Shown: one piece after another, positions 27,679 through 51,303 of the stretch
How positions within the stretch are numbered: position 1 is the first letter of the stretch
Layout of the letters: each line of letters begins with the position of its first letter
Assembly (NCBI GenBank): GCA_031281585.1
Contig: JAITFE010000143.1
Span: 1-64,000, forward strand
DNA from: Bifidobacteriaceae bacterium
GTDB lineage: Bacteria > Actinomycetota > Actinomycetes > Actinomycetales > WQXJ01
DNA length: 64,000 nucleotides
Direction: 5' to 3'
Notes under the pieces: generated by a model
What the model was told of the DNA's origin: nothing
Seen by the model: the letters and a program-made list of their open reading frames with translations, nothing else
Databases searched by the model: none
Position numbers and translations under genes: made by a program

Positions 27679-29112
27679 TCAGCGGCGCGCAAACGCCTCG
27701 GCGAGCGGGCCGGATCGGCGCGATCCATACAGGGCCGGGCCGGTCGGATCCGTCGGGATGGCCAGCAGGTGCCGGGCGGCCTGGGAGATCTGGTCGATCG
27801 GCGATTGAACGGCCGACCGGTCGAAGGGACGGGCCTCGGCCGCGCACTGGGCGGCCAGCGCCCGGAAGGACGCCAACTCCTCGTGACCACGCGACAGCCT
27901 GAGGTCGATCGGCCCGACAAACGGGCCAAGCGTGCGCGACATGCCGTAACGGGGCACTTGGATGCGCCACGCCGCCAGCAGCTTTTGGAACTGCCCGAAC
28001 TCGACCGAGCAGGCGTCCACCTCCCCCGCAACCTGCCGCAGCGCCGACGCGGCCATTCCCAGGCGGCCGGCCAGGGCGTCCACGCCGTCCGACAGGGCCT
28101 GGCAGAGCAGCGGCACGTAGCTGAGGCCGTCCGGCGGGGCCAAGCCGTCCAGCACCTCGATGGCGAAGTTGATCACCATGTCGTCATGCAGATGGGCCAA
28201 GGCGATCAGGAACCGCAGTTCCATCACTTTGCCCCGCACTTCGCCGAGCCGGGCGGTCAGCGGCCTGATCGCGCGGTCCACACCGCCGCCCAGGCAGTCC
28301 ATGGCGCGCGCGGTCGAGGCCAGAATTGGCGCATGGGCTTCGACTTGCGCGGAGGCGTTCGAAGCCACCGTCGTCACCCCGGCCAAGTCCGCCAGCGTGC
28401 CGGAGAGCTCCCCGGCCACGGAGCCGAGCGCCTCGGCCAGGCTCTGGAGCGAGTCAAGGCGCCCCAGGATCTCTCCCAGGCGGTCGCGCAGGAACAAGGC
28501 CGCCCGCAAGATGTCCGCCACCTCGCCCGTGGCGTCCGGCCTGGCCAGGCGCTCATGCGACGCCGCCACCCGGGCCGTCGACTCGGCCGGCAGCGCCGCG
28601 AACATGAAGTCGTCGTAGGAGGCGAAGCCGGCTTTGGCCAGGAGCCTTGAAAGGTGGCCGAGGCCCACCGCCGCGCTTTCAGCCCGGCTTTGGCCCGCCC
28701 GCCGGGCCGCGTCCTCCAGCGCCGCGGAGGCCTCATACAGGTCCGATGCCGTCTGCCACAGTTTGTCCGCGCATGGGGTGGCGCGCACGGACAGGAAGCC
28801 GTCGCCCAGGGGCGTGATGGTGGCAAACACCCAGTACGTGTACCCGTCTTTCGCCAAGTTGCGCACATAGGCCGCGAACGGCCGACGCGCCAGGATTGTG
28901 TCCCACATCAGCCGGAAGGCGCCGCCCGGCATGCCCGGGTGGCGGATCAGGTTGTGGGGCGCTCCCATCAATTCGCCTTGGTCGAAAGCCGACAGGCGCT
29001 GGAAGACGCTGTTGGCGCCTGTGATGACGCCCTTGCGGTCCGTCGTTGAGAAGAACAGGTCGTCAATCCCGACCACCCTGAAACGTCCGTTGGGTCGCTC
29101 CCGCCGGTCCAT
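27679..29112 (-). CDS. PAS-domain sensor protein, paralogue of the one next to pilB
   Basis: A 477-residue soluble protein. Residues ~14-125 form a PAS domain of the Aer/energy-taxis kind (DDLFFSTTDRKGVITGANSV, LMGAPHNLIRHPGMPGGAFR, YVRNLAKDGYTYWVFATITP). The rest is a long helical region without the classical methyl-accepting hairpin that I can recognise. It matches the protein at 41046-42467 over its whole length, including HLHDDMVINFA and FQKLLAAWRIQVPRYG. The ATG preceded by AAAGGGGG was chosen over an upstream frame rich in Ala. It stands between rpoC and rpsL, which are usually neighbours. The ligand (perhaps FAD or haem) and the output are unknown. Confidence 0.8.
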   Translation of the reverse strand: MDRRERPNGRFRVVGIDDLFFSTTDRKGVITGANSVFQRLSAFDQGELMGAPHNLIRHPGMPGGAFRLMWDTILARRPFAAYVRNLAKDGYTYWVFATITPLGDGFLSVRATPCADKLWQTASDLYEASAALEDAARRAGQSRAESAAVGLGHLSRLLAKAGFASYDDFMFAALPAESTARVAASHERLARPDATGEVADILRAALFLRDRLGEILGRLDSLQSLAEALGSVAGELSGTLADLAGVTTVASNASAQVEAHAPILASTARAMDCLGGGVDRAIRPLTARLGEVRGKVMELRFLIALAHLHDDMVINFAIEVLDGLAPPDGLSYVPLLCQALSDGVDALAGRLGMAASALRQVAGEVDACSVEFGQFQKLLAAWRIQVPRYGMSRTLGPFVGPIDLRLSRGHEELASFRALAAQCAAEARPFDRSAVQSPIDQISQAARHLLAIPTDPTGPALYGSRRSGPLAEAFARR

Positions 29113-36999: not shown

Positions 37000-38220
37000 C
37001 TACAGCGCGGCACCCGTTGTGAGCTGGAAGATCGGCAAATACAGCGCGATCAAGATGCTGCCGACGATCGCACCCACAACCGCGATCAGGACCGGCTCAA
37101 TGATTGAGGTGATCGAGGCCGTGGCGGCCGTGACCTCTTCGTCGTAGAACTCGGCCACCTTGTCGAGCATCTGGTCCAGAGCGCCAGCCTCCTCGCCAAC
37201 CGCGACCATGTGGGCGATCATGGCCCCGAAGACCGGTTCGGTGGCGATCGCCTTCCCGAGCCCGATCCCGTTCATGACCTGAACCTTGACCCGCTCCACC
37301 GCTTCGGTCACCACGACGTTGCCGGCGGTCTCCCCGACGATTTCCAACGTCTGGACGATCGGCACGCCGACAGCGCTCATGGTGGCGATGGACCGCGACA
37401 GCCGGGCAAGGGCAACTTTCAGCAGCAAGCCGCCAACGATCGGAGTCTTCAGTTTGATCGGGTCGAGCTTCATCCGAACCGACAGGTCGTTCTTGTGTCG
37501 GTTCCACCACCAGACAAAGAAGATGATTCCAGCCAGCAGCGGGATGCCCGCGATCTTCAAGAACTCCGAGAGCTTGACCAGGATCAGGGTCGGCAGCGGC
37601 AACTCCTTGCCCACGCCCTCAAAAATCCCCTGGAAGACGGGCACGATGAACAACAACATGATCACCACGATGATCGCGGCGAAGACCAGCACCACTGCCG
37701 GATAGACCATTGCCGAAGTGACCGCCCTGCGCAGCCGCAATTCGGACTCCATCTGCTCCGCCACCGACAGCAACACGGTGTCGAGGAAGCCGCCGGCCTC
37801 GCCGGCCTTGATCATGGCAATTGTCACAGGCGAGAACACCCGCGGGTGCTTGGCCATGGCCTCGCCGAGCGACGAGCCGGTCTCCACGTCGCCGGCGACT
37901 TCGCGCAGCACCGCGGTCAACGCCGGAGACCCCGCCTGCTCAATGATGGCGTTTAGGGAGTTGAACAGCGACAGGCCAGCGTTGACCATGGTGGCCAGCT
38001 GCCGCATGGCGACGGCCACGTCTTTGGGCTTCGCCCGGTCGCCGCCCAGTTTGATCTCCATGTTGAGGCCGCTCTTGGAAACCTCATCGATGGCGATCGG
38101 CGTCAGGCCGTTCTCCCGCAGGTGGCGCGCAACCGTCTGCTGGTCGGGTCCGTCGATCTTGCCGGAACGGGTCGAGCCGTCGGCTATGACGGTGTACTCA
38201 AAGGTCTTGACTCCGGCCAT
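37000..38220 (-). CDS. pilC: Type IV pilus inner-membrane platform protein PilC
   Basis: Polytopic platform protein on which the PilB and PilT motors act. It has 406 residues with two GspF/PilC repeats, each containing a soluble helical bundle and ending in membrane segments (AMVYPAVVLVFAAIIVVIML near 165-185; ITSIIEPVLIAVVGAIVGSI near 370-390). The motif MIKAGEAGGFLDTVL and its second-repeat counterpart MVAVGEEAGALDQML mark the family. It is the last pilus gene, six bases after pilT. Confidence 0.96.
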   Translation of the reverse strand: MAGVKTFEYTVIADGSTRSGKIDGPDQQTVARHLRENGLTPIAIDEVSKSGLNMEIKLGGDRAKPKDVAVAMRQLATMVNAGLSLFNSLNAIIEQAGSPALTAVLREVAGDVETGSSLGEAMAKHPRVFSPVTIAMIKAGEAGGFLDTVLLSVAEQMESELRLRRAVTSAMVYPAVVLVFAAIIVVIMLLFIVPVFQGIFEGVGKELPLPTLILVKLSEFLKIAGIPLLAGIIFFVWWWNRHKNDLSVRMKLDPIKLKTPIVGGLLLKVALARLSRSIATMSAVGVPIVQTLEIVGETAGNVVVTEAVERVKVQVMNGIGLGKAIATEPVFGAMIAHMVAVGEEAGALDQMLDKVAEFYDEEVTAATASITSIIEPVLIAVVGAIVGSILIALYLPIFQLTTGAAL

Positions 38221-38226
38221 GGGAGG

Positions 38227-39369
38227 TCACATCCTTCCAAATGGACTATTCAGTCCGGCAGCACCCTGCGGAACGCGAGTGGTGCGGCCGAGGAGGCGGG
38301 CGAACTCTTCGGGCGAGCGGGCCGTTTCCAGTCCCTCCTCGAAGGTGATGTCGCCTTGGCGGACCAGGTCCGCCAGCGACTGGTCGAGGGTGTGCATGCC
38401 CTCGTCTTTGCCCGAGTGCAGGGCAGAGTAGATCTGGTGCAGTTTGTTCTCGCGGATCATGGCCCGGATCGCCGGAGTCGCGCGCAAGAGTTCGGTGGCC
38501 ACCACCCGCCCGCGGCCGTCGGCGCGGCGGCACAGCGTCTGCGACAGCACACCTTGGATGGTGATGGCCAACTGGGCGCGAATCTGATCCTGCTGGAACG
38601 AGTCGAACTGGTCGACCATCCGGTTGATCGATTGGGCCACACCCTGGGTGTGCAGCGTGGCGAACACCAGGTGGCCGGTCTCAGCAGCACGCAGCGCGAT
38701 CTCCATGGTCTCCTTGTCCCGCATCTCGCCCACCAGGATGATGTCGGGGTCTTGCCTCAGAGCGTGCTTCAAGGCCTCGGAGAAGGAGAGCGTGTCCACC
38801 CCCACTTCGCGCTGCGCCACCAGGCAGCGGTTGGAGGTGTGTTGGAACTCGATCGGGTCCTCGATCGTCAAAATGTGACCCGAACGGGTGCGGTTGGCCA
38901 GGTCGATGATGGCTGCCAGGGTGGTGGACTTGCCAGAGCCGGTCGGCCCGCAAACCAGTACCAAGCCGCGCGGCAGGCCGGAGAAGGTCTTGACCACACC
39001 AGGGATGCGCAGTTCTTCCAGGGGAAGGATTTTGTCCGGGATGACCCGGAAAGCGGCCGAGATGGAACCGCGGTCCCAGAACAGGTTGCAACGGAACATG
39101 CGCCCTGAGGGCACCTGGTAGGAGTAGTCCAGCTCAAGATCGTGTTCGAACCGCTCTTGCTGGTTCCGGTTGATCATCCCCATCAACTGCTCGTAAAGTG
39201 CGTCCTCACCCGGGGCCGTGTAGCCCGGCAGCGGTGTGAGGTTGCCAGACTGGCGGATGACGGGCGGCAACAGCGCCGTCAGGTGCAAGTCGGAGGCACC
39301 CAAGGCGGCTGCCTCTTCAAGCGCTTGAACCAGGTCCAGTCCCGTTACGGCGGGATACGCTTCAGTCAT
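38227..39369 (-). CDS. pilT: Type IV pilus retraction ATPase PilT
   Basis: Hexameric motor that disassembles the pilus and powers retraction. The 380 residues contain Walker A GPTGSGKST at about 142-150, the Asp box TIEDPIEF, Walker B DPDIILVGEMRD and the His box GHLVFATLHTQ. The PilT-type C-terminal region is present (LLRATPAIRAMIRENKLHQI, similar to the AIRNLIRE motif needed for retraction). Three bases separate it from pilB. A retraction motor implies dynamic pili (twitching, DNA uptake or adhesion). Confidence 0.95.
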   Translation of the reverse strand: MTEAYPAVTGLDLVQALEEAAALGASDLHLTALLPPVIRQSGNLTPLPGYTAPGEDALYEQLMGMINRNQQERFEHDLELDYSYQVPSGRMFRCNLFWDRGSISAAFRVIPDKILPLEELRIPGVVKTFSGLPRGLVLVCGPTGSGKSTTLAAIIDLANRTRSGHILTIEDPIEFQHTSNRCLVAQREVGVDTLSFSEALKHALRQDPDIILVGEMRDKETMEIALRAAETGHLVFATLHTQGVAQSINRMVDQFDSFQQDQIRAQLAITIQGVLSQTLCRRADGRGRVVATELLRATPAIRAMIRENKLHQIYSALHSGKDEGMHTLDQSLADLVRQGDITFEEGLETARSPEEFARLLGRTTRVPQGAAGLNSPFGRM

Positions 39370-39372
39370 CGC

Positions 39373-41049
39373 TCATGCCACCACCCTCAGTAGTTCCTCC
39401 ACAGAAGTCATGCCTTTGGCCACTTTGGCCCAACCGTCTTGTCGCAGCGAAATCATGCCTTGTTGGGCCGCCAATTCGTTGAGTTCTCGGGTGGACTTGC
39501 GCAGCGCGGTCATGTGTTCCAATTCTTTGGACATGTTCATGATCTCGTGGACCGCCATGCGGCCCTTGTAGCCCGTGTTGGCGCACGCCGAGCAACCAGC
39601 TGGCCGGTAAAGCTGGGTTGGCGGCGGCTCCTTGAAAACCCAGTCCTCCGTGAGCACCTTCCGTTCCGCCTCCGTCACGGCGAAGGGCTGACGGCACCGT
39701 TCGCACAGCCGACGAGCCAGGCGCTGGGCCACCACGCAGTCCAGAGCCGAAGCCACCAAGAACGGCTCAATGCCCATCTCAGTCAACCGTGTGACCGCCG
39801 AAGGGGCGTCATTGGTGTGGAGAGTGGACAGCACCAAGTGGCCGGTCAGTGCGGCCTCGACGGCGATCTTCGCGGTCTCACCGTCACGGATTTCCCCCAC
39901 GAGCACCACATCCGGATCGGCCCGCAAGATCGAGCGCAACGCCGAGGCAAAAGTCAGACCGGCCTTCGGGTTGACTTGGATCTGGTTGATGCCGGACATC
40001 CTGTATTCGACTGGGTCCTCAATCGTGATGATGTTGACCTCCGGACGGGAGATCTCTCGAATGGCGGCGTACAGGGTGGTTGACTTGCCGGAACCCGTCG
40101 GGCCGGTGGCGAGAATCATGCCGTAGGGCTTGGTATACGAGGCCTTGAACTTGTTGAACGAATCATCTGAAAACGACAGCTTGCGCAAATCGACTTCAAC
40201 GGCCGAAGTGTTCAGAATACGCATGACGACTTTCTCGCCCCAGACAGTCGGCAACGTTGCGACGCGAAGGTCCACGTTGCCGCCGTCGACCTCGATCGAA
40301 ATACGGCCGTCTTGGGGCTTGCGCCGCTCGGCGATGTCGATGTTCGACATGATCTTGATGCGGGAAATGACTTGCGATTGGATCGACTTGGGGGCGTTCT
40401 GCATTTCATGAAGAACGCCGTCGATCCGGTAGCGAACTCTCAGGTCGTGCTCCTCCGGTTCCAGGTGGATGTCCGAGCAGCCGTCGTGAATCGCTTGGGA
40501 AATCAGCAGATGCACCCACCGGACGACAGGGGAATCCTCCGCGACGACTTCGGTCACCGAGACGAGGTCTCTTTGCTCCTCGCGCGCGACCGAGTCGATG
40601 GTCTGCCCGATCGAGTCGATCTCCGAATCTGAACGGACCCACCGCTTGATGGCCCGCTCCAGGGCGCTGCGCTGCGCGACCACCGGTGCGACAGCGGAGC
40701 CAAGATAAGACCGCACGTCGTCAAGCGCGACAATATTGCCCGGCTCAGCCATGGCCAGCAGCACCGTGTCGCCCTCGCGGGCCACTGGCAAGAGCAAGTG
40801 GCGGCGGCAAATCGCCGCGGGGACCGAGACGGCCACACGGGCGTCAACCGGATAAACGTCAATGTCGATAAAGCGCAGCCCCGCCGCCTCGGCGAGCACC
40901 GGGATGAGGTCCTCTTCCGTCAGCACGCCGGATGAGACCAGCGCCTGCCCCAGGGTCACACCCTCCAAGCTCTGTTGACGAACTGCCTGGTCAAGCTGGT
41001 CCTTGGAGACCAAGCCCCGGGACAGCAGGGTTTGCTCTAGTGCGCTCAT
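39373..41049 (-). CDS. pilB: Type IV pilus extension ATPase PilB
   Basis: Motor for pilus assembly, 558 residues. An N-terminal GspE/MshEN-like domain (about 1-150; the start SALEQTLLSRGLVSKDQL is typical) is followed by the ATPase core with Walker A GPTGSGKST, IEDPVEYRM, Walker B DPDVVLVGEIRD and GHLVLSTLHTND. A four-cysteine zinc element follows (CERC and CSAC). MshEN-type N-termini can bind cyclic di-GMP; whether this one does is open. Its ATG overlaps the stop of the PAS gene (ATGA), tying pilB translation to the sensor module. Confidence 0.96.
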   Translation of the reverse strand: MSALEQTLLSRGLVSKDQLDQAVRQQSLEGVTLGQALVSSGVLTEEDLIPVLAEAAGLRFIDIDVYPVDARVAVSVPAAICRRHLLLPVAREGDTVLLAMAEPGNIVALDDVRSYLGSAVAPVVAQRSALERAIKRWVRSDSEIDSIGQTIDSVAREEQRDLVSVTEVVAEDSPVVRWVHLLISQAIHDGCSDIHLEPEEHDLRVRYRIDGVLHEMQNAPKSIQSQVISRIKIMSNIDIAERRKPQDGRISIEVDGGNVDLRVATLPTVWGEKVVMRILNTSAVEVDLRKLSFSDDSFNKFKASYTKPYGMILATGPTGSGKSTTLYAAIREISRPEVNIITIEDPVEYRMSGINQIQVNPKAGLTFASALRSILRADPDVVLVGEIRDGETAKIAVEAALTGHLVLSTLHTNDAPSAVTRLTEMGIEPFLVASALDCVVAQRLARRLCERCRQPFAVTEAERKVLTEDWVFKEPPPTQLYRPAGCSACANTGYKGRMAVHEIMNMSKELEHMTALRKSTRELNELAAQQGMISLRQDGWAKVAKGMTSVEELLRVVA

Positions 41050-42467
41050 CTGACACCCCTTGGCATGACCAGGCCCATCGAATTGAAGACGGCCTGAGTG
41101 TGGTCGTAGTTGTCGCTGATCAAGTGCCGGGCGGTCGCGTTGATGCGGCCCAGGATCTCCTCCAGGGGGGCCCGGTCAAACGGCCGGGCCTCATCCACGC
41201 AGGCCTTGGCGAGGGAGCGCAACGAACTGAGCTCCTCGTGGGACTTGTGGAGGCGCTCGTCAATCGGCCCGACCAACGGCCCAAGCTGGGCCGACACGCC
41301 GTACTTGGGCACTTGGATGCGCCAAGCGGACAGGAACTTTTGGAACTGGCCCAGGCTGGCGCCGGCGGATTCGACGTGGCGGCCCACGTCGGTCAAGACC
41401 TGCTGGGCGCCTTCCAGGCCCGACGAAACCGCCTCCACGTCATCGGCCAACGCGTAGCACAGCAGCGGCACGTACAGGAAACCTTCGGGCGGCGCGAAAC
41501 CGTCCAGGTTCTCCAGGGCGAAGTTGATGACCATGTCGTTGTGCAACTGGGCCAGGGCGATCCGGAAGCGCAACTCCATCACGCCCAGCCGCACCTGTGA
41601 GAGCCGCTCCGGAAGCGGGGTCACCACATGCTCGGCGCCAGCCCCGACCTGGGTCATGGCGTTGGCGGTCGAGACCAGGATCGGCGCGTGCCCTGCCACC
41701 CGCTGGGAGGCGTCCAAAGCGACTTGGGTGACTTGCGCCAAAGTCGCCACCGTCCCGCCAAGCTGTTGCGATCCGCCCTGCAGCGCCTCAGCCAGGCGTT
41801 GCAGCGAATCCAAGCGGCCAAGCAGTTCGCCGATCAACTCGTCCATCGCGACCGCGTTGTTGAGAATGTCGGCGATGTCGCCGTGCGCCTCGGGACGGTA
41901 GGTCCGCCGGGCGGACAACGACACCCGCGTCTGGGTTTCGGCCGGCAAAGCGGTGTACATGAACTCGTCATAGGACGGGAAGCCCGCGTCCGCCAGCATT
42001 CCCGCCAAAGCGACCAGACCCGCCGTGGCCGTCTGCGACCGGTTGGCGCCGTTCCGCTTGGCCTCCTCCTCGATCGGCAGAGCCTGGCCGTACAGCGAGA
42101 GCGCCGCGTTCCAAAGCGGCTCGAAGCGGGGGGAGGACCGAACAGACAAGAACCCGCTGCCCATAGGCGTGACCGTCGCAAACACCTGGTAGTCGAAACC
42201 GTCCTTGGCCAGGTTCTTGACGTATGCGGCGAACGGTTTGCCGCCCAGCAACGTGTCCCACATCAGCTTGAAGGCGCCACCCGGCATCAACGGGTTGCGG
42301 ATTAAGTTGTGCGGTGCTCCCATCAGTTCGTTTCGCGGGAAGGCCGAGAGCCGGGCGAACACCGAGTTGGCCGCCGTGATGACGCCCTTTCGGTCGGTGC
42401 AGGAGAAGAACAACTCGTCAACTCCAACACGCCGTTCTTGCCCGATCCGGGCTTTGCGATCAAGCAT
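41046..42467 (-). CDS. PAS-domain sensor protein coupled to pilB
   Basis: A 473-residue protein with a PAS domain at ~16-125 (DELFFSCTDRKGVITAANSV, ELMGAPHNLIRNPLMPGGAF, YVKNLAKDGFDYQVFATVTP), similar to the sensing domain of Aer. A long, mainly helical part follows (LHNDMVINFALENLDGF, FLSAWRIQVPKYGVSAQLGP). No transmembrane segment and no clear chemoreceptor signalling tip are seen. The ATG overlaps the GTPase gene by eight bases and its stop overlaps pilB. A likely role is to bring a redox, light or metabolite signal to the GTPase module or directly to PilB. Its paralogue is at 27679-29112. Confidence 0.82.
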   Translation of the reverse strand: MLDRKARIGQERRVGVDELFFSCTDRKGVITAANSVFARLSAFPRNELMGAPHNLIRNPLMPGGAFKLMWDTLLGGKPFAAYVKNLAKDGFDYQVFATVTPMGSGFLSVRSSPRFEPLWNAALSLYGQALPIEEEAKRNGANRSQTATAGLVALAGMLADAGFPSYDEFMYTALPAETQTRVSLSARRTYRPEAHGDIADILNNAVAMDELIGELLGRLDSLQRLAEALQGGSQQLGGTVATLAQVTQVALDASQRVAGHAPILVSTANAMTQVGAGAEHVVTPLPERLSQVRLGVMELRFRIALAQLHNDMVINFALENLDGFAPPEGFLYVPLLCYALADDVEAVSSGLEGAQQVLTDVGRHVESAGASLGQFQKFLSAWRIQVPKYGVSAQLGPLVGPIDERLHKSHEELSSLRSLAKACVDEARPFDRAPLEEILGRINATARHLISDNYDHTQAVFNSMGLVMPRGVR

Positions 42468-43065
42468 TGCGCAACCTATCCATTGCCACGCGCACCACTG
42501 CGACCAGCGCCTGCTTCGCGGCTTCGCGGGAACGCGCATCCGAATACATGACCGGGATATCGGGGCCCACGGCCAACGCGTCGCGCACATCCTCGAGCGT
42601 GTGACGGGCAATCCCGTCGAAGCAGTTGACCACCACGACGAATGGGATCCCGCGGGATTCGAAGTAGTCCACGGCCGTGAAGCCCTGGTCCAACCGGTCG
42701 GTGTCCACCAGCACGACCGCGCCGATGGCGCCGCGGACCAAGTCATCCCACATGAAGAGGAAGCGCTCCTGGCCCGGCGTGCCGAACAGATACAGCCAAA
42801 GGGAATCGCCCAGCGCGATGCGGCCAAAGTCCATGGCCACCGTGGTGGTTTCCTTCTGGGCCGCCCGCCGTCCCGCGTCATCCACTCCCAGGGAGTGTTC
42901 CGTCATGTCGGCTTCGGTGTTCAACGGCTCAATATCCGAAACCGCGCCAATGAACGTGGTCTTGCCAACGGCGAAGCCGCCGGCCACCACGATTTTGACG
43001 ACTGTCGGAGGCTTGGGCCGCGTCACGGTAGCGCCTTGGCTCGGCTCATAGTTTGGATATTGCAT
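42460..43065 (-). CDS. Small GTPase of the conservon type (CvnD-like)
   Basis: A 201-residue Ras-like GTPase of the actinobacterial Cvn 'ATP/GTP-binding' family. Walker A GGFAVGKTT is at 29-37, a Thr-rich switch I region (KETTTVAMDFGRI) follows, the switch II FGTPGQERFLFMW has Gln, and the base-recognition element is NCFDG, typical of this family instead of NKxD. It overlaps the DUF742 gene by 20 bases and the PAS gene by eight. In Streptomyces such GTPases act with the Roadblock and kinase-like partners of the conservon. Here the neighbours are pilus motors. Confidence 0.92.
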   Translation of the reverse strand: MQYPNYEPSQGATVTRPKPPTVVKIVVAGGFAVGKTTFIGAVSDIEPLNTEADMTEHSLGVDDAGRRAAQKETTTVAMDFGRIALGDSLWLYLFGTPGQERFLFMWDDLVRGAIGAVVLVDTDRLDQGFTAVDYFESRGIPFVVVVNCFDGIARHTLEDVRDALAVGPDIPVMYSDARSREAAKQALVAVVRVAMDRLRNA

Positions 43066-43708
43066 TTAGAACACTCTCCAGTAGCTCCAGGGTTTGTTCG
43101 CGTGAGACGGGCCCGCCCGAACCCACGCCGCCGCCGCCGCCCGCCATGGTGTCATGCACCACCAGGACGCCAGCCTCAGCTAGATCGGAAACAAGCACCT
43201 TGACAACACCCACCGGCAGTTTCAGGTGCGCGGAAACTTCGGCCACGGTCAAGTACGTGGTGGCGATCTGCCGCACGATGGCGGCTTCCTCGGGCGACAG
43301 GGTTTTGCCCGTGTCCGCCAGCCACTGTTCGTTGGCGACTTCGAGAATTGACTCAAGGCGGGTGCTGGTGCTGCCCTTGGTCCGCCCGCCGGTCACCACG
43401 AAGGGCCTGACCGAGGCGACGTCTTCGACGGACAGCGACACCTTCGCCTCGTCTTCGATCCGGCGCCGGGGCCGCTTGCGCGGCGAGGCGGGGACCGACG
43501 GGCGCGGGGCACGCGCCTCGGCCGGGTGGCTGGCCGCCGGCGCGGATCGCGGGTGGACGGGGGCCGTCCGGGCCACGGGGGCGCCGGCCGGTGGGATGTC
43601 GGTCTTGGCTGGGGAAGCGAGCGATTCGAACGTTCGCTCAGCCAAGCCGCTCGAGTCGGCGTCCGTCCGTCTGGGGACGGGGCGCCGCTGCGCGGGAGAT
43701 GGCATCAT
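43046..43708 (-). CDS. DUF742 protein (CvnC-like)
   Basis: About 220 residues. The C-terminal ~115 are DUF742 (VRPFVVTGGRTKGSTSTRLE, TVAEVSAHLKLPVGVVKVLV with winged-helix character, DLAEAGVLVVHD). The N-terminal ~100 are Pro/Ala/Arg-rich and ought to be unstructured. In conservons this protein is the third component, of unclear biochemical role. The start is one of two adjacent ATG codons overlapping the cvnB-like stop. Frames further upstream lie within the Roadblock gene. Confidence 0.88.
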   Translation of the reverse strand: MMPSPAQRRPVPRRTDADSSGLAERTFESLASPAKTDIPPAGAPVARTAPVHPRSAPAASHPAEARAPRPSVPASPRKRPRRRIEDEAKVSLSVEDVASVRPFVVTGGRTKGSTSTRLESILEVANEQWLADTGKTLSPEEAAIVRQIATTYLTVAEVSAHLKLPVGVVKVLVSDLAEAGVLVVHDTMAGGGGGVGSGGPVSREQTLELLESVLNAISKL

Positions 43709-44160
43709 CGGCCACCCCGCACGGTGCCGGTTGTCGGCAGGGCGTCCCGCATTTCGGCGATTAGCTGCGGCGTCAAGAAGGACTCGGCGCGGCCCACCAG
43801 AGTCGCCATCTCGTAGCCAACCAGGCCCACGTCGGAATCCGGTTCGCACAGCACCGCCAACACCGATCCATAGGAGATCGACATCAGCATGACGAAGCCT
43901 TCCTCGTATTCGATGACCGATTGGCGGTCCCGACCTATGCCAAGTTCGCGTCCCGCGCCGCGGGCCAACGACGACATGCCGGAGCAGATCGCCGCCATAA
44001 TGTCGCCGACGGTCCTGTCGGCGCCGCCGGACATGGTCATCAGCAAGCCGTCGGCGCTGACCACAACGCCGAGCCGGGCTCCCGGGGTCGAGCGCACAAA
44101 CGAGTCAAGGAGCCAGGTCAGATCCTGCCTATTCTCCCCGGTCTGGTAGTTGGTCGTCAT
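43705..44160 (-). CDS. Roadblock/LC7-domain protein (CvnB-like)
   Basis: A 151-residue Roadblock/LC7 protein (LTWLLDSFVRSTPGARLGVV, VSADGLLMTMSGG, IEYEEGFVMLMSISYGSVLA). Proteins of this fold regulate small GTPases, for example MglB with MglA. It is preceded by AAGGAGA and followed without a gap by the DUF742 gene. Within the conservon it is expected to contact the GTPase or the kinase-like protein. Confidence 0.92.
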   Translation of the reverse strand: MTTNYQTGENRQDLTWLLDSFVRSTPGARLGVVVSADGLLMTMSGGADRTVGDIMAAICSGMSSLARGAGRELGIGRDRQSVIEYEEGFVMLMSISYGSVLAVLCEPDSDVGLVGYEMATLVGRAESFLTPQLIAEMRDALPTTGTVRGGR

Positions 44161-44230: not shown

Positions 44231-46810
44231 TCACCCCTTGCCCGCCGGGGCGCGGGCGTCGCTCCGCCCGCGGCGGGTGCCAATTTGGAAGGATGAGAGG
44301 GCGTTGCGGATCTTCTCCGCGTCGCGGGCCTTCGGGGGCGCCAGAGGAGCCGAGGCCGGGGCCGGCAGGACCGTTTGGCCGGTCTGCCGACGCGCCAGGC
44401 TGGAGGCCGGCTTAGATTCGGTGCGTTCGGGCTTGTAGGCGTTGATCCCCGCGAGCTCGGCCAGGGCCTCCTCTTGGATGGACGCCTTCAGGGCGATGGC
44501 CGACCCGACAATCGACCCGCTCGCGTCGGGAATCCCAGCGGGGCCGCCACCCGGCACCATGGTGCCGCCGGGGCGGAATCCGGGCGACGCGCCGGTCGGC
44601 GCGGGCACCACGGGGGACGTGGGGGCGCCGGGCCGCAAGCTGCCCGGCACGCCGGGCTGCGCCGCAGGCGCCATCACTCCAGGTTGGAACCCGGTTTGGA
44701 CGCCGACTGGGGCCGGCACGCCTGGAGCGGCCCCAGGCCGAGGCCCGGCCGGAGCCGACACGGGCCGAGCCGCCACCGGTGCGGTGCCTGCGGCCCCCGC
44801 CGGGGACCGTTTGGGCAACCCCGACGGCGTGGCAGCCGGGCCGCCTGGCGCGTATGCCGGCGGCGCGACGGCCCCCGCAGGCGCGACCGGTCGCATTCGT
44901 CCCGGTGGAGCCGTGGTGTGCGGGGGGCTGACGCCTGGAGAAGCCGGGACGGGCGGGAACGATTCGCCCGCCGGAGCCTTGCCCGCGACCGGTCGCCGCC
45001 TTACGGGTGGCGCGGCCGGGGTTCCAGGAGCTGTGGGCGCTCCCGCCGTGGTGTTGGCCTCACGCCCCGCCGGCCGGGCTGCTCCCGCCGGGGCGCCTCC
45101 GAAAGGGAACGGCGCTGGCGGCTCGGCACCACCCGGCGGTTGGGTTGGTCCGGTGGCGGTCGTATGAGGGGCCTCCGATGCCGTCGTCGCAGTGGTCGCC
45201 GAGTGGCGCGGCAACGACGCCGAGGGGTTGGCCGAGGCTCCCAACGGGGAGAATCGGGCGCCCAAAGGCACGATCGAGTCCGCCCGGCCAGCGCCCGTCT
45301 CCGCCGCCGAGGCGCTTGGCCCGGCCCCCGCAGGGCCCGTCGGTTTCGCTGCGGACCCGGACGGACCCGACGACGCGGAGGCGGCCGGCGTGGCCGCTGG
45401 GGGAGCTGTCGCGGTTCGTTCGGGCCGCCCTCCCGCACCCTGGGCGCGCGCGCCACGACGCGGCAAGCCCGCGCCTGTCGGAGCGTCCATTCGCACAGGC
45501 TGGAAGGATTCCTCCGGCGCCGAAGGCTCCGTGGCGGCCGAAGGCTCCAGCTTTGGCTGCGGCGGCAAGGTCGGCTGCGCAGGCGGCACTTCGGACGACT
45601 CCACCGGTGCTGGGCGATCGTCCACAAGTTGACCGGGAATGCGCACAATGGCAGTGGTGCCGGTGCCGTCCTCTCCCTGACCGGGGGCGAAGCTAACGGC
45701 CGCGCCCAGCCGCGACGCCAGTCGCGCGACCACGGCCACGCCCAGGCGGCCGTGCGTCAAGTCGTCCGGGTTGCCGCCGGCCTGCATCATCTTGTTGGCG
45801 GCGGCCAGTTCCTGCGGGCTCATGCCGACGCCTGAATCCGAAATTGTCAACAGCACGTCGCCTGAATGGTTGGAGCTCCCGACCTCCACTGCCGTGCCCT
45901 CCGGGCTGAAGGACGTCGCATTCTCCAACAACTCCGCGATCAAGTGTGCGGCTGGCACCACCGCATACGCCCGGATCATGGGATCCCATTCGAGGGAGAT
46001 CCGGATCCGCTCGTAATGCTCGATCTGCGAGGACGCCGTGCGGATGACGTCCGACACGGACAGGGCCTCTCGCACCGACCGCTCCGGGTCCCGTCCTGCC
46101 AGAATCATCTGCGCCTCGGAGCCACGCCGCATCCGGGCCATCAGGTTGTCCAGGGCGAATAGCGAGAACAACTTGTCCGGGTCGGTCTCCGACTGCTCCA
46201 GTTCGTCCAGGATCTTCAGCGCCCTCCCGACCAGCGAAATCTCACGCCGGGCGGCGGTGTTGAGCGCCTTCGGCAGGGCCTCGCCACTGGTGGGAGCGGG
46301 TGCCCGTGGCGGCGGAGCCGTCGGCACGGGCAACTCGGGAGCGGAGACCACCACGGCCTCCGCCTCCGCCGGAACGACCACCGGCTCCGGCGCTACCGGC
46401 TGCTCAGGCGGCGGCTGCACCTGCGACTGCGGTACCTGAGCCTGCGGCGGATACGCCGGAACGGGTTGGGCGGGCGGCAGTTCGGCCGGAACGGCCGCGA
46501 ATGGGGCCTGGTCGGGAAGCGCCTGCGGCGGCGGCCCGTAGCCGGCGGGCACTCCTGGCGGCAAACCTGGCACCGCCTGCGGAGCGGGTGCGGGCGGCGG
46601 AGCCGCCGCCCGCACCTGCTGGAGCTGCGCGGCCAACTCCGCCACCGCCGATCGCAGCGACTTCACGCCCGACCGGATCGCCACCAGCACAATGACCCCG
46701 ATCAAAACAAGGACAGCTAGAAGTACGCCGATCTGCTCCAAATTTGGGAAGCTGGCAAAGTCGGTGAGCTGTTCCAGCCCAACCGCAGCCAGAGGATTGG
46801 ATGTTCGCAT
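44231..46810 (-). CDS. Sensor-kinase-like protein of the conservon (CvnA-like)
   Basis: An 859-residue membrane-anchored protein. One membrane helix at ~28-46 is followed by a Pro/Ala/Gln-rich linker to ~175, a dimerisation-type helical region (~180-245) and a HATPase domain at ~280-395 with N box ELLENATSFSP, G1 DSGVGMSP and G2 HGRLGVAV. About 460 further residues are Pro/Ala-rich. In related proteins I recall the helical region as LDHLATRMRR, with a candidate phospho-acceptor His. Here it reads LDNLMARMRR, with Asn222. The large extracellular sensor domain of many CvnA proteins is missing. ATP binding seems retained, but autophosphorylation is doubtful. Confidence 0.87.
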   Translation of the reverse strand: MRTSNPLAAVGLEQLTDFASFPNLEQIGVLLAVLVLIGVIVLVAIRSGVKSLRSAVAELAAQLQQVRAAAPPPAPAPQAVPGLPPGVPAGYGPPPQALPDQAPFAAVPAELPPAQPVPAYPPQAQVPQSQVQPPPEQPVAPEPVVVPAEAEAVVVSAPELPVPTAPPPRAPAPTSGEALPKALNTAARREISLVGRALKILDELEQSETDPDKLFSLFALDNLMARMRRGSEAQMILAGRDPERSVREALSVSDVIRTASSQIEHYERIRISLEWDPMIRAYAVVPAAHLIAELLENATSFSPEGTAVEVGSSNHSGDVLLTISDSGVGMSPQELAAANKMMQAGGNPDDLTHGRLGVAVVARLASRLGAAVSFAPGQGEDGTGTTAIVRIPGQLVDDRPAPVESSEVPPAQPTLPPQPKLEPSAATEPSAPEESFQPVRMDAPTGAGLPRRGARAQGAGGRPERTATAPPAATPAASASSGPSGSAAKPTGPAGAGPSASAAETGAGRADSIVPLGARFSPLGASANPSASLPRHSATTATTASEAPHTTATGPTQPPGGAEPPAPFPFGGAPAGAARPAGREANTTAGAPTAPGTPAAPPVRRRPVAGKAPAGESFPPVPASPGVSPPHTTAPPGRMRPVAPAGAVAPPAYAPGGPAATPSGLPKRSPAGAAGTAPVAARPVSAPAGPRPGAAPGVPAPVGVQTGFQPGVMAPAAQPGVPGSLRPGAPTSPVVPAPTGASPGFRPGGTMVPGGGPAGIPDASGSIVGSAIALKASIQEEALAELAGINAYKPERTESKPASSLARRQTGQTVLPAPASAPLAPPKARDAEKIRNALSSFQIGTRRGRSDARAPAGKG

Positions 46811-46888: not shown

Positions 46889-48829
46889 CTAAGGCCCTTC
46901 GCATAGACCTTCCAAGCACTCCTCAAGGCTGAAGCGCTTCAGCCATTTGCCCGAGGCACTCTTCTGGTTCAGGTCCATGCAGTAGTAGTCGACGCCGTTG
47001 TACTTGTTCTTGGGCAACGTGCCGGTGTCCTTAAACATGACCTGGTCGTCACTGGTCCATTTCGTGTAGCCAGGGGACTTCTGGTCACTGTACTGGCAGT
47101 CCTCGTACTGCGGCTCGCTGAACCAGACCCAGCGTGTGCGGGTCTCATTGAAGAAGCCTGGACGTCCCCAGTTCCCGCCGTGATGTCCCAGCGATCCGTG
47201 CTCGTGCCAGCCGCGGCCCCATTGCTTGCCGTAGGTGTCCCACCAAATCACGAAGCCTTGACCGGTCTGGAAATCCTTGACGTTCCGGGCCACAACGATG
47301 ATGGCGCCCGGATCGGGACTCTTGTAGGAGGAGACGATCTCAAACACCTCTGAGCCTCTGCCTGTGGAACCCTCGATCTTGCTTGGATAGCCTTCATAGC
47401 TTCGCACCGGAGCGCCCCAGCCGTACAGCGTGCCGTCGTCAGCCAAAGCGGTCACGGCGGTGAACGAACAGGAGAACTGCACAATGTTGGGCGGGGTGCC
47501 ATCCCATTGGACAAACCCTGGCGAGCGGTAGCAGTGATCTCTGGCAGCTGTGGTCGTCTCGGCGCAGCGCCGCCCGACGGCTCCCCAGTCATTGACTGTG
47601 CCGTCTTCGATTTTTCCGTCGTTCCGGCCCCATGTCAGCATCCGGCCGGTGGACAAGAGCGCCGCCCCAAAACCGATTCCCGAGTGGACTTGGACGATGT
47701 ATTCGCTGGGGCTGTTCTCCCGGAACCATGGCTCCAACGCCACCGATTTCACCGCGATCTGGCCTTCGCCCTCGGGGTAGTCGTTGTAGTTGACGCCGGG
47801 CCTGCCCGAATACTCGGCTGGGTGGTCGCCTTCCGCGCGCTCCCATGGTGATCCCAGGGTTCCGCTCGCGTTGCCGCCGAAGTACCAAACCTGACCGTTT
47901 TTCAGCATCACCCAATACGTCTGGTAGCCGCCTTCAAGTTGGTCCGGCTGGTTGCCCTCTACCGTCACATCGAAGTCCGCCGGGAACCGCACCTGCACCG
48001 CTCCCCACCTGTTCTTGCCGTCGGTCAGGTCGGTGAGGTCTCCCGTGCCGACGCCTCCGTAGTTGTAGCCGCCCCAGGAGTAAATCAGGCCACTCTTGGT
48101 GACAGCAGCGCCGCTCATTTCCGTACTCGACAGGAGCTCCACAGGATCATTCTGACCCAGCAACGGCTTGCCGCAGTTCTCCTTGATGACGGCCTTGCCC
48201 TTCGCGTCCTTGCCCCAGCAGCTGTCATCCCAAGCCGCGCCGATCCGCAGTCTCTGCGGAGGCCAGGAGGCGCCGGTGGCCTTGCCGTACTTCGCGTTAC
48301 CCGTGTCCGAGTTCCTGACGGCGTTCGAACCACCGGTGCCGTCGCGATTCGCGTATGAACCCCAGCCCCAAACGTAGCCGGCCGTGTCGACGGCGTTGAA
48401 GTTGTAGATGCCTCCGGTCACTTCCTTGATGGCCTTGGAGGGCAAACCCTCGACCGTCGTGGGAGCTCGGTTGTCCGGCTCGCCCCAATCTGTGGACAGG
48501 CAGGACGCGTCGTCGCGCGAGCCTTTGACGCCCAGCGCTCCGCACACGCCCCAACCCCACAGGTACAACTCGCCGTCCAGGATGGTGACGCCCGCCTGCA
48601 GCGTGCGGCGGTCCTTCCGCGACTCACCGGTGACAGCAGTTGTCTTCGGCAGCACGGCCGGCTGGATAACCGGCGTCAACGCCTCCGGTGCCCGTGCGGC
48701 TTGGGCACCGGTTTCGGCGCCGCCGATAGTCGTCACCACCAAGGCACCCACCGCCGTCGTGGTGGCAATCACGGTCCAGATTCTTTGCGCCCGCAGGGCT
48801 CGGCCGGTGCGGACCTTGTTGTTAGCCAT
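46889..48829 (-). CDS. Secreted RCC1-like beta-propeller protein in the pilus operon
   Basis: A 646-residue exported protein with a basic N-terminus and a hydrophobic segment at ~18-40, likely a signal peptide or anchor. It then has at least six repeats with the RCC1 feel (LYLWGWGVCGALG, YVWGWGSYANRDG, IYSWGGYNYGGVGTGD, VWYFGGNASGTLGS, MLTWGRNDGK, LYGWGAPV). Many Cys and aromatic residues follow in the C-terminal ~150 residues (e.g. YEDCQYSD, YYCMDLNQ). The ATG follows GGGAGGGAG and overlaps the pilO-like gene by eight bases, so it belongs to the pilus operon. It may be a pilus-associated adhesin or tip component. I know of no characterised pilus protein of this type. Confidence 0.75.
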   Translation of the reverse strand: MANNKVRTGRALRAQRIWTVIATTTAVGALVVTTIGGAETGAQAARAPEALTPVIQPAVLPKTTAVTGESRKDRRTLQAGVTILDGELYLWGWGVCGALGVKGSRDDASCLSTDWGEPDNRAPTTVEGLPSKAIKEVTGGIYNFNAVDTAGYVWGWGSYANRDGTGGSNAVRNSDTGNAKYGKATGASWPPQRLRIGAAWDDSCWGKDAKGKAVIKENCGKPLLGQNDPVELLSSTEMSGAAVTKSGLIYSWGGYNYGGVGTGDLTDLTDGKNRWGAVQVRFPADFDVTVEGNQPDQLEGGYQTYWVMLKNGQVWYFGGNASGTLGSPWERAEGDHPAEYSGRPGVNYNDYPEGEGQIAVKSVALEPWFRENSPSEYIVQVHSGIGFGAALLSTGRMLTWGRNDGKIEDGTVNDWGAVGRRCAETTTAARDHCYRSPGFVQWDGTPPNIVQFSCSFTAVTALADDGTLYGWGAPVRSYEGYPSKIEGSTGRGSEVFEIVSSYKSPDPGAIIVVARNVKDFQTGQGFVIWWDTYGKQWGRGWHEHGSLGHHGGNWGRPGFFNETRTRWVWFSEPQYEDCQYSDQKSPGYTKWTSDDQVMFKDTGTLPKNKYNGVDYYCMDLNQKSASGKWLKRFSLEECLEGLCEGP

Positions 48830-49496
48830 TGCTCCCTCCCTCAGTCGAAGAGTCGGGTATTTTGTCTGCCGGTACAAGGGCGTAGGTGTACCCAATGATC
48901 GTATACTCGGCGACGTTGGTCAGCCCGTTGGCGTCCGCCGTCTCCGAATCGCCTGTCATCTGCACATCTGTGACCGAAAATAGACGGCCCTCGTCTGCCT
49001 GCAGCATCGCGAGGAACTTCTGCGTCTGTTCCAGCACACCCTCAATCTCAATTGTGAACTTGTATTGGTAGAGGTTTGCCGGGGGTTGGGGCACTACCGG
49101 CGCTTCTTGGCTGTCTGGTCCCTTGGGCAACGGAGCGGCCACGGTTACCGCAACCGGCATGTCGCTCGCCACAGACTTGACCGTGGCCCCCGATTCCTGT
49201 GCGAGGTTCCACAGGTCGTCAGTGAACTCGGCGAGCTCAAGATCGGTTGGGAACTGGCTCCTTTTCGCCTCAAGCTCTGCCTTCTTCTCGTCAAGGTGTT
49301 TAGCGTCTTCGGCCAGCTTGTTGAGTTCGGCCTGTGCCTGCTCGTTTTCAGACTCGGCGTCTTCGGCCTTGGTGATGGCCTCGCTCCGCGCTTCCAACGC
49401 GGGAGCGTAGAGCAGGAAGTACGTGCCCACGGCCAATGCCAGGGCCAGCAGCGCGACTAGCGCCAGTATTGCCGTAGATCGCTGGTTGCCTCTCAT
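48822..49496 (-). CDS. pilO: PilO-like pilus alignment protein
   Basis: A 224-residue bitopic membrane protein with a short cytoplasmic start, a membrane helix (~10-30, ILALVALLALALAVGTYFLL), a coiled coil (~35-80, rich in Glu/Lys/Ala) and a periplasm-facing alpha/beta domain with YKFTIEIEGVLEQTQKFLAM, the ferredoxin-like pattern of PilO. With PilM and PilN it forms the inner-membrane alignment complex. The start ATG overlaps the pilN stop (TGATG). Confidence 0.85.
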   Translation of the reverse strand: MRGNQRSTAILALVALLALALAVGTYFLLYAPALEARSEAITKAEDAESENEQAQAELNKLAEDAKHLDEKKAELEAKRSQFPTDLELAEFTDDLWNLAQESGATVKSVASDMPVAVTVAAPLPKGPDSQEAPVVPQPPANLYQYKFTIEIEGVLEQTQKFLAMLQADEGRLFSVTDVQMTGDSETADANGLTNVAEYTIIGYTYALVPADKIPDSSTEGGSNG

Positions 49497-50260
49497 CAGT
49501 CCGTCTTCCCTTCCTCCGTTGTGGTCCCGGCTCCCTGAGCTTGGGCGGTCAGTAGCCACTCTTGGAAATCCTTCGGGAACAGTTCGTTGCCGACCAAACC
49601 CACCAGGTTGATTTGGGCCGAGCACGTCGCCGTCCAGACCTCGCCTCTCGGAGTCTCTCGCTTGGTGGCGGCGCTGTAGGTGCCGAATTCCAGGCCGGGA
49701 ATAGAGTTGAAACCGCGCACCCAGGCTGACACGCCAGGCATGTCCGGCACATCCAACATGATGGTGGCCGAGCCGATGGCGGCGGGCGCCAAGACATTTC
49801 CTGAACTGCTCATTGTCTTGCCAGCCGACATGCCCTGGAGCGTAATGCTGGAAACGACGGAGCCATCCGGCACGTTGTCGAACATGGCGTAAATCAATTC
49901 GGGCCAACGGATCTCGTATGACACAGCCACCATAAGGGCGTCCCCGGTCGCTTTCAACTCTTCGTTGATCTTGATGACCTCCGCGTACTGCTCCTTCTCC
50001 TCGGCCAAGCGCTGGGCCTCCGATTCGGCTTTGGCGAGCCGCGAGTCAGCGGCGCCTTTCCAGATGCTGACGCCAACATATCCAGCGACCAAGACCAAGA
50101 CGACCAGCGCCAGAGCGACTAGCGCCTTGACCTGAAGGGCCCGCCCGGCTTGGCGGTTGGCCACATAGGCCGGCAGAAGATTGACCGCCGGGACCCGTGG
50201 CCGTGTCGCCATGGCGCTGCCCAAGCCGACGCCGGGCGCGGTGGGTGGGTTCTTGCTCAT
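49496..50260 (-). CDS. pilN: PilN-like pilus alignment protein
   Basis: A 254-residue bitopic protein. The cytoplasmic N-terminus carries VPAVNLLPAYVANRQAGR, matching the INLLP motif by which PilN binds PilM. A membrane helix (~45-66) and a coiled coil (~70-105) follow, then a PilN-type domain (WPELIYAMFDNVPDGSVVSS). The start overlaps pilM (ATGA) and the stop overlaps pilO. Confidence 0.88.
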   Translation of the reverse strand: MSKNPPTAPGVGLGSAMATRPRVPAVNLLPAYVANRQAGRALQVKALVALALVVLVLVAGYVGVSIWKGAADSRLAKAESEAQRLAEEKEQYAEVIKINEELKATGDALMVAVSYEIRWPELIYAMFDNVPDGSVVSSITLQGMSAGKTMSSSGNVLAPAAIGSATIMLDVPDMPGVSAWVRGFNSIPGLEFGTYSAATKRETPRGEVWTATCSAQINLVGLVGNELFPKDFQEWLLTAQAQGAGTTTEEGKTD

Positions 50261-51303
50261 GCCGCCCCTCCCATCGCCAGGCCCACCGCCACGGGTAGCG
50301 ACATCCGCTGTTCAGGCGTCATCGCCTTGGCAGAACGTTCGACCGTGAAGTTCGAGTCCAGAGCCGAGAAGGAAGCCGGCAGCCTGAGCGCCGTTGAAAT
50401 GTACTGGCCCAGTCCGTTCAACATGCCTCCCCGACCCGAGATGACCACGTGCTCGACCGCGTGTCCAGAAGACTGGCTGTAGAAGGAGAACGTCCTGGCA
50501 ACCTGTTCCACCAACGCCTGGCACTTCTCGGCGATCACGGCAAAGGCCCCGTGGGCCTGCTCGTTGCCTTCGCCTGGGTTCATCAAAGCCACTTCAATCT
50601 TCAATCGTTCCGCGTGCGGTTCTGGGATCGCTATGGTCCGCGCGATCTGGTCAGTAATCAGTCTGCCACCTGTCGGCAAAATCCGCATTATCGCGGGCTC
50701 GCCATTTTGGGCCACAACCACTGTTGTCATATCCGCGCCGACGTCCACCAGGCCGACAATGGAGTGTTGGAACTGTCCCCGCGCCAAAGCACGCACCAAA
50801 GCGAAGGCCGCCAGATCGACCCGAACGGGCCGCAGCCCCGCCGCCAAGACGGCGTCCACGTTGTGCTCGATCGTCTCGTTAGGGGCCGCCACCAGCAGGC
50901 CGCTGACCTGGCCCTCCGCCTCTACGAGTGGATAAAAGTCGAGTTGGCATTCATCGACCGGCACCATGATCAGGTCTTGAACCGTGAACGGCAGGGCAAG
51001 ACGGAGTGATGCAAGCGGAGCCGAGGGCAGCGTCGCATCGCGCACCACAACTCTTTGCCCGCCCAGCCCGATGACCACATCTTTGCTCGCGAAACGCTGC
51101 GCGTTCCAAAGGTTCTTGAGGGCGGCGGACACGTCAGCGACCCGAACAACCTCACCGTCCCGGACGGCATCGGGCACCAAATCGACCTCGGCGTAGCGTT
51201 GGATCGCCGCAGAGCCGAGCGGATTGCCGGTATCGAAAGCTAACTCGACGGCCCGCAACTGGGTGTCGCCAATGTCCAGCCCAACGACTTGGGTTCTCGC
51301 CAT
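50257..51303 (-). CDS. pilM: PilM, actin-like pilus protein
   Basis: Cytoplasmic actin-fold protein of 348 residues that binds the PilN tail and links the alignment complex to the motors. The ATP-binding phosphate-1 loop VGLDIGDTQLRAVEL is at the N-terminus, the phosphate-2 segment VGLVDVGADMTTVVV at ~185-200, and the adenosine region VISGRGGMLNGL at ~300. It follows the prepilin peptidase gene by 37 bases. Confidence 0.93.
   Translation of the reverse strand: MARTQVVGLDIGDTQLRAVELAFDTGNPLGSAAIQRYAEVDLVPDAVRDGEVVRVADVSAALKNLWNAQRFASKDVVIGLGGQRVVVRDATLPSAPLASLRLALPFTVQDLIMVPVDECQLDFYPLVEAEGQVSGLLVAAPNETIEHNVDAVLAAGLRPVRVDLAAFALVRALARGQFQHSIVGLVDVGADMTTVVVAQNGEPAIMRILPTGGRLITDQIARTIAIPEPHAERLKIEVALMNPGEGNEQAHGAFAVIAEKCQALVEQVARTFSFYSQSSGHAVEHVVISGRGGMLNGLGQYISTALRLPASFSALDSNFTVERSAKAMTPEQRMSLPVAVGLAMGGAA

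Follow-up and report, generated by a model that had tools for sequence, protein, structure and literature searches.

The crystal structure of E. coli Aer (PDB 8dik) places FAD in contact with H53, R57, M69, W70, N85 and R115, plus T27 (PMC9668731), and in the CetB/CetA energy-taxis pair of Campylobacter an Aer-like PAS protein is separate from its membrane partner CetA, a real chemoreceptor (PMC2628428). Among conservons, which are Ras-like G-protein circuits, the accessories CvnE (a P450) and CvnF (a GAF protein) accompany CvnA proteins devoid of sensor domains; CvnF8 binds CvnA8 and raises its ATPase activity and autophosphorylation, for both of which H183 of CvnA8 is essential (mBio 2026, PMC13343842). 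MfpA, encoded right after a mycobacterial conservon, binds the GTP-bound form of its GTPase (PMC4316618). In Myxococcus, the Ras-like GTPase MglA and the roadblock protein MglB are linked to the pilus motor. To our knowledge, few conservons have an established output, and how CvnA hands its signal on to the GTPase is not settled. Among the open-access papers searched, two treat conservons together with type IV pili, and neither describes a conservon-PAS-pil linkage.

In this study, we analysed a locus in which such elements meet. It lies in a stretch of 64,000 nt from a Bifidobacteriaceae bacterium, referred to as the window, and comprises the following features:

27679..29112, minus strand: PAS2, full-length paralogue 57% identical to PAS1, between rpoC and rpsL
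37000..38220, minus strand: PilC platform protein (sequence, position, synteny)
38227..39369, minus strand: PilT retraction ATPase (sequence, position, synteny)
39373..41049, minus strand: PilB extension ATPase with MshEN / c-di-GMP motif
41046..42467, minus strand: PAS1, soluble protein of 473 aa, Aer-type PAS plus helical output domain (Aer PAS homology; AF2 model)
41046..41049, minus strand: pilB start and PAS1 stop sharing 4 nt (ATGA), as in Cellulomonas
41064..41912, minus strand: C-terminal helical domain of PAS1, residues 186-468, proposed derivative of an MCP signalling domain without the tip
41499..41570, minus strand: family signature in the helical domain, residues 300-323, RFRIALAQLHNDMVINFALENLDG (alignments A1, A3, A6)
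42123..42422, minus strand: PAS domain of PAS1, residues 16-115, with FAD-contact residues H53, R57, M69, W70, N85, R110 (Aer contacts from PMC9668731)
42460..42467, minus strand: 8-nt overlap of PAS1 start and GTPase stop (ATGCTTGA), kept in Cellulomonas
42460..43065, minus strand: CvnD-type small GTPase (PF03029, E=1.4e-26)
43046..43849, minus strand: CvnC-type DUF742 protein, start uncertain (PF05331, E=5.8e-23)
43705..44160, minus strand: CvnB-type roadblock protein (PF03259, E=2.7e-16)
44231..46810, minus strand: CvnA-type kinase-like protein with a single TM and without a sensor domain; retains the ATP-binding motifs; LDH of DHp replaced by LDN
48822..51303, minus strand: alignment-complex genes pilM, pilN and pilO (PilM_2, E=1.3e-39; PilN and PilO assigned from their position and weak matches)

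The canonical conservon order (CvnA, roadblock, DUF742 and GTPase genes) is present, followed downstream of PAS1 by pilB, pilT, pilC and rpoB, and preceded further upstream of the cvn genes by pilO, pilN, pilM, a prepilin peptidase gene and pilins. Between pilO and cvnA there is a gene (window positions 46889-48895, minus strand) whose product has RCC1 repeats and what looks like a signal or TM segment; the gene is retained in the sister genus and possibly encodes a pilus-associated surface protein.

The PAS1 reading frame opens with ATG at position 42467 and closes with TGA at 41046. The GTPase stop codon at 42460-42462 gives the 8-nt overlap with the PAS1 start, and the pilB ATG at 41047-41049 gives the 4-nt overlap with the PAS1 TGA, in agreement with the ORF, start and stop coordinates of the original prediction, which had a PAS gene overlapping the GTPase gene and pilB by these lengths. 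In Cellulomonas the 8-nt GTPase/PAS overlaps read GTGGCTGA and GTGCGTGA and the 4-nt PAS/pilB overlaps GTGA and ATGA, all in register with PAS1, and among congeners the PAS1 frame is 87-95% identical. Since the frame is kept in congeners and both overlaps recur in Cellulomonas, the overlaps go beyond chance. In one congener (G001, L035:2517-3934) a frameshift or an assembly error interrupts the PAS1 frame around residue 201, and the adjoining cvn and pil genes stay open.

Residues 16-115 of PAS1 matched the PAS domain of E. coli Aer (8dik) in phmmer with E=1.4e-18, and 8dik was also the top Foldseek match of the predicted model (E=3.5e-7), so that two methods bear out the Aer-like character claimed for this domain; the best fold matches overall were flavin PAS domains of Aer, NifL and MmoS. 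Besides the shared PAS fold, PAS1 keeps H53, R57, M69, W70, N85 and the equivalent of R115 (R110), i.e. all Aer contacts checked except T27, which is replaced by K27. In the family alignment H53, R57, W70 and N85 were found in 55/55 homologues and R110 in 54/55. An intact Aer RHPDMP loop is absent from PAS1, where RNPLMP stands instead (H58N, D60L). Because the pocket residues are conserved, and despite the T27K, H58N and D60L departures, FAD binding by PAS1 is a well-founded prediction. The residue set fits the FAD contacts of Aer, and the input is likely flavin/redox rather than haem or light; of the redox, oxygen or light signal suggested earlier, the redox part thus gains from the retained contacts and the flavin PAS fold matches, and light, like haem, fits less well.

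The remainder of the protein is a different matter. AlphaFold2, supplied with 55 homologues, modelled PAS1 with mean pLDDT 91.2 and pTM 0.89 (mean pLDDT 90.0 for the isolated C-terminal half) and confidently predicted a bundle of long helices for the C-terminal ~290 residues. With the isolated helical domain Foldseek returned nothing at E<=0.001, with TM <0.5, hence no close solved fold. Pfam, NCBIfam and PDB sequence searches of PAS1 gave no catalytic output domain, Pfam and NCBIfam detected no kinase, cyclase or MCP domain outside the PAS domain, and PF00015, which would reveal a CheA/CheW-binding hairpin tip, had no match; the earlier statement that kinase, cyclase and chemoreceptor tip are missing was thereby upheld. 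Scattered matches of PAS1 to NifL, MCE, XopAE and tape measure proteins were rejected as PAS-level or coiled-coil matches only.

As to the origin of the helical domain, its PDB profile matches to MCPs (E ~1e-10) were discounted, since designed helical bundles score alongside. Divergent homologues from Bdellovibrionales, Acidobacteria and Planctomycetes (alignment A5) retain a recognisable, degenerate MCP tip, e.g. LISLNALVGSCRLERGGEGLSVVTEDLARLS; they match the MCP tip in register (prob 90, E=1.5e-6) as well as the actinobacterial helical domain (prob 97, E=9e-11). From this bridge we infer that the output domain of PAS1 is probably a chemoreceptor signalling domain that lost its CheA/CheW tip. 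Convergent coiled-coil similarity is a possible explanation of the likeness, given that coiled-coil composition is able to mimic MCP similarity and that direct profile comparison of the actinobacterial domain with MCP signalling domains yielded prob 1 only. CheW genes occur near a few loci of Bdellovibrionales and other distant PAS homologues. In the host genome no MCP or CheW gene was found, with control searches positive, and this excludes a classical chemotaxis output for PAS1.

PAS1 differs from E. coli Aer in having no TM, HAMP or intact MCP tip and in its host having no CheA/CheW system. It resembles CetB/CetA in that the Aer-like PAS is separate from the membrane partner, whereas the partner proposed for PAS1 is a CvnA pseudo-kinase instead of a chemoreceptor, and PAS1 carries a helical output domain of its own. 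A CetB/CetA-like arrangement, in which a 175-190-aa Aer-like PAS gene overlaps or adjoins a gene for an MCP signalling domain, was seen in many Micrococcales (L044-L049, L142).

The order cvnA-B-C-D-PAS-pilB-pilT-pilC is kept in the window genus, Cellulomonas sp. ACRRI and C. pakistanensis, so a comparative search did recover the association with Cvn and pil genes as a conserved one, in congeners as well as in two Cellulomonas. Close relatives of the window genus are Bifidobacteriaceae-labelled MAGs; going by the isolate codes, we take these relatives to be termite-gut MAGs. The Cellulomonas pil-linked PAS proteins, ~45% identical to PAS1, form one clade with PAS1 and PAS2 in a maximum-likelihood tree (100/99), in which PAS2 is nested among the pil-linked proteins as the sister of PAS1. 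Two Corynebacterium loci (L099, L104) likewise have a PAS homologue between rpoC and rpsG, a placement for which no reason is apparent.

Forty CvnD loci and about fifty pilB loci were inspected in the host's order. Ordinary conservons and ordinary pil operons are unlinked there and linkage is rare; a module at every pilB of the order was rejected, as most inspected pilB loci do not have it. Within the inspected pilB loci it was confined to the window genus, C. pakistanensis and, in a form without PAS, the Cellulomonas-type genome G219, and some 40 other pilB loci of the order had no PAS homologue. In G219 (L210, C1:725200-738700) cvnABCD leads straight into pilB-pilT-pilC-pilM and a PAS gene is missing; this is a second pil system, additional to the common one. 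Since its cvnABCD-pilB set has a sensor-less CvnA and its genome contains no full-length PAS homologue elsewhere, PAS is dispensable in G219. Most full-length relatives of PAS1 stand alone, away from any Cvn or pil gene, in Actinomyces, Corynebacterium, Cutibacterium and others, which indicates that the PAS family is older than the Cvn-pil wiring and may have another partner. Among 80 loci of solo homologues no recurrent neighbour was shared beyond local synteny, apart from some CheW genes. In genome G049 (L051:8822-9742) a roadblock gene is followed after 4 nt by a short Aer-like PAS gene, and no pil gene is near.

The CvnA proteins encoded by the pil-linked loci depart from the common type. 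Ordinary CvnAs have two TM segments flanking a sensor region of ~300 residues (21/21 inspected) and LDH in the DHp helix (20/21), whereas those of the window genus, two Cellulomonas and G219 have one TM and no sensor region, lack the conserved DHp histidine in all seven sequences (LDN/IDN, 7/7) and keep the N, G1 and G2 ATP-binding motifs. H183 of CvnA8 probably corresponds to the LDH histidine, because in the CvnA alignment, which was made without CvnA8, no other DHp histidine is strongly conserved. In that case autophosphorylation at this position is closed to pil-linked CvnA, which would have to signal allosterically.

PAS1 is encoded next to cvnD and alongside a sensor-less CvnA, as CvnE/CvnF accessories are, and like CvnF8 and CvnE it is a soluble accessory just after cvnD. 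Neither a GAF nor a P450 domain was found in PAS1, which has a PAS and a proposed MCP-derived helical domain instead; at most it is a functional analogue of CvnE/CvnF, and not an orthologue of either. Moreover, Cvn8 controls gene expression, whereas the PAS1 system sits on pilBTC. With a predicted input as in Aer/CetB and a proposed circuit role as in CvnF/CvnE, PAS1 is a full member of none of these families.

Which component PAS1 contacts can be approached from its neighbours in other contexts. In the sister genus the locus reads pilMNO-RCC1-CvnA-like-PAS-pilB-pilT-pilC, with no roadblock, DUF742 or GTPase gene beside the CvnA-like and PAS genes, and genomes G011 and G015 of this genus had no CvnD at E 1e-40. 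At a third type of locus (C100 in the host genome, with equivalents in about nine other genomes) a PAS homologue lies 9-61 nt behind a CvnA-like gene whose product has a diverged CvnA ATPase at its C-terminus (hhalign prob 98.4, E=7e-15); these loci contain neither GTPase nor pil genes, and 1/10 (L056) is without a clear upstream ATPase. At one of them (L057:1949-6950) the divergent PAS gene lies behind genes for two TM proteins, one sensor-like and the other a CvnA-like pseudo-ATPase. Sister-genus and C100-type PAS proteins have lost the FAD contacts, and the motifs of the paired CvnA-like ATPases are eroded; the correlated decay of pocket and ATPase motifs, seen in two lineages only, fits a working pair. 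The CvnA-type ATPase is the constant neighbour, as no other one is shared by the contexts that have PAS, and this matches the partnership demonstrated for CvnF8 and CvnA8 (PMC13343842). CvnA is therefore better supported as the contact of PAS1 than the GTPase or PilB. Direct hand-over of the signal to either of the latter, as originally suggested, is possible but less supported, as CvnA-like and PAS pairs persist without a GTPase and, elsewhere, without pilB.

We propose that PAS1 is an FAD-redox accessory sensor of a pil-dedicated conservon, with a chemoreceptor-derived output that has no tip, acting through CvnA on CvnB/C/D and PilB/PilT, and we give this reading about an even chance. The observations behind it are the gene order with its overlaps, the PAS homology, the conserved FAD contacts, the loss of the tip, the lack of Che proteins and, in CvnA, the loss of sensor and histidine; FAD occupancy, the CvnA partnership, the direction of the signal and control of PilB are its inferred components. 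On the strength of the conserved pocket residues, the PAS domain would bind FAD and read the cellular redox state. The output half, a former chemoreceptor signalling domain deprived of its tip, would now serve as a helical interaction bundle and allosterically regulate the ATP-binding domain of the sensor-less, histidine-less CvnA, as the gene pairs and the CvnF8 precedent suggest. Judging by general conservon knowledge and operon linkage, CvnA would bias the roadblock/DUF742 pair CvnB/C, this pair would determine the nucleotide state of CvnD, and the GTPase in turn would control the adjacent PilB/PilT machine. A second input to the pilus motor via c-di-GMP is likely, since PilB carries the MshEN/c-di-GMP motif.

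Three other readings have to be weighed against action through CvnA. PilB itself might be the target of PAS1, which would then be a redox-dependent co-factor of the extension motor in addition to c-di-GMP acting via MshEN; in the window genus and in Cellulomonas pilB comes directly after PAS with the conserved overlap of 4 nt, and in the sister genus PAS is directly upstream of pilB with no CvnB/C/D. Yet CvnA-like and PAS genes are paired in places without pilB, cvnABCD-pilB exists without PAS, and the ~40 further inspected pilB loci do not have a PAS homologue, which makes this reading unlikely. That PAS1 is an effector or regulator of CvnD, in the manner of MfpA, appears quite improbable to us: its gene comes straight after cvnD, the 8-nt overlap being conserved, and MfpA is a precedent for an effector in the post-cvnD slot, but PAS homologues keep their CvnA-like neighbour in genomes that yielded no CvnD at E 1e-40, and most PAS relatives have no CvnD gene nearby. 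The direct-effector role suggested earlier thus keeps its redox input and loses ground on hand-over to the GTPase or PilB, as G219 has cvnABCD-pilB without PAS.

PAS1 could, finally, be a recent local insertion of a widespread solo PAS protein, with its true partner elsewhere and the operon only co-expressing it with pili. The many solo homologues without Cvn or pil genes and the PAS2 paralogue between rpoC and rpsL agree with this; the identical slot and two overlaps in two families, with PAS proteins ~45% identical, and the single clade of pil-linked PAS proteins do not, and we regard such an insertion as a rather poor prospect. Within the reading preferred here, action through CvnA, a more far-reaching version is tentative and to our mind somewhat doubtful, namely that an aerotaxis receptor deprived of its tip was re-plumbed to a Ras-like G-protein circuit, giving Che-independent and phosphotransfer-independent redox control of actinobacterial type IV pili.

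The operon structure ties a conservon GTPase to a defined machine, PilB/PilT. Owing to this link, a readable cofactor of the apparent sensor and a CvnA without the histidine, redox as input and pili as output of the G-protein become directly testable, and with the histidine-less CvnA it can be asked if signalling by CvnA is possible without phosphorylation. Obtained results share with Myxococcus MglA/MglB the association of a Ras-like GTPase and a roadblock protein with the pilus motor and differ in that the GTPase is of conservon type (Group 2), accompanied by CvnA and CvnC, encoded within the pil operon and found in an actinobacterium, with no Frz/RomR. In actinobacteria the Cvn-pil system would be a counterpart of pilus control by MglA, and PAS1 may offer an example of a chemoreceptor reused outside chemotaxis.
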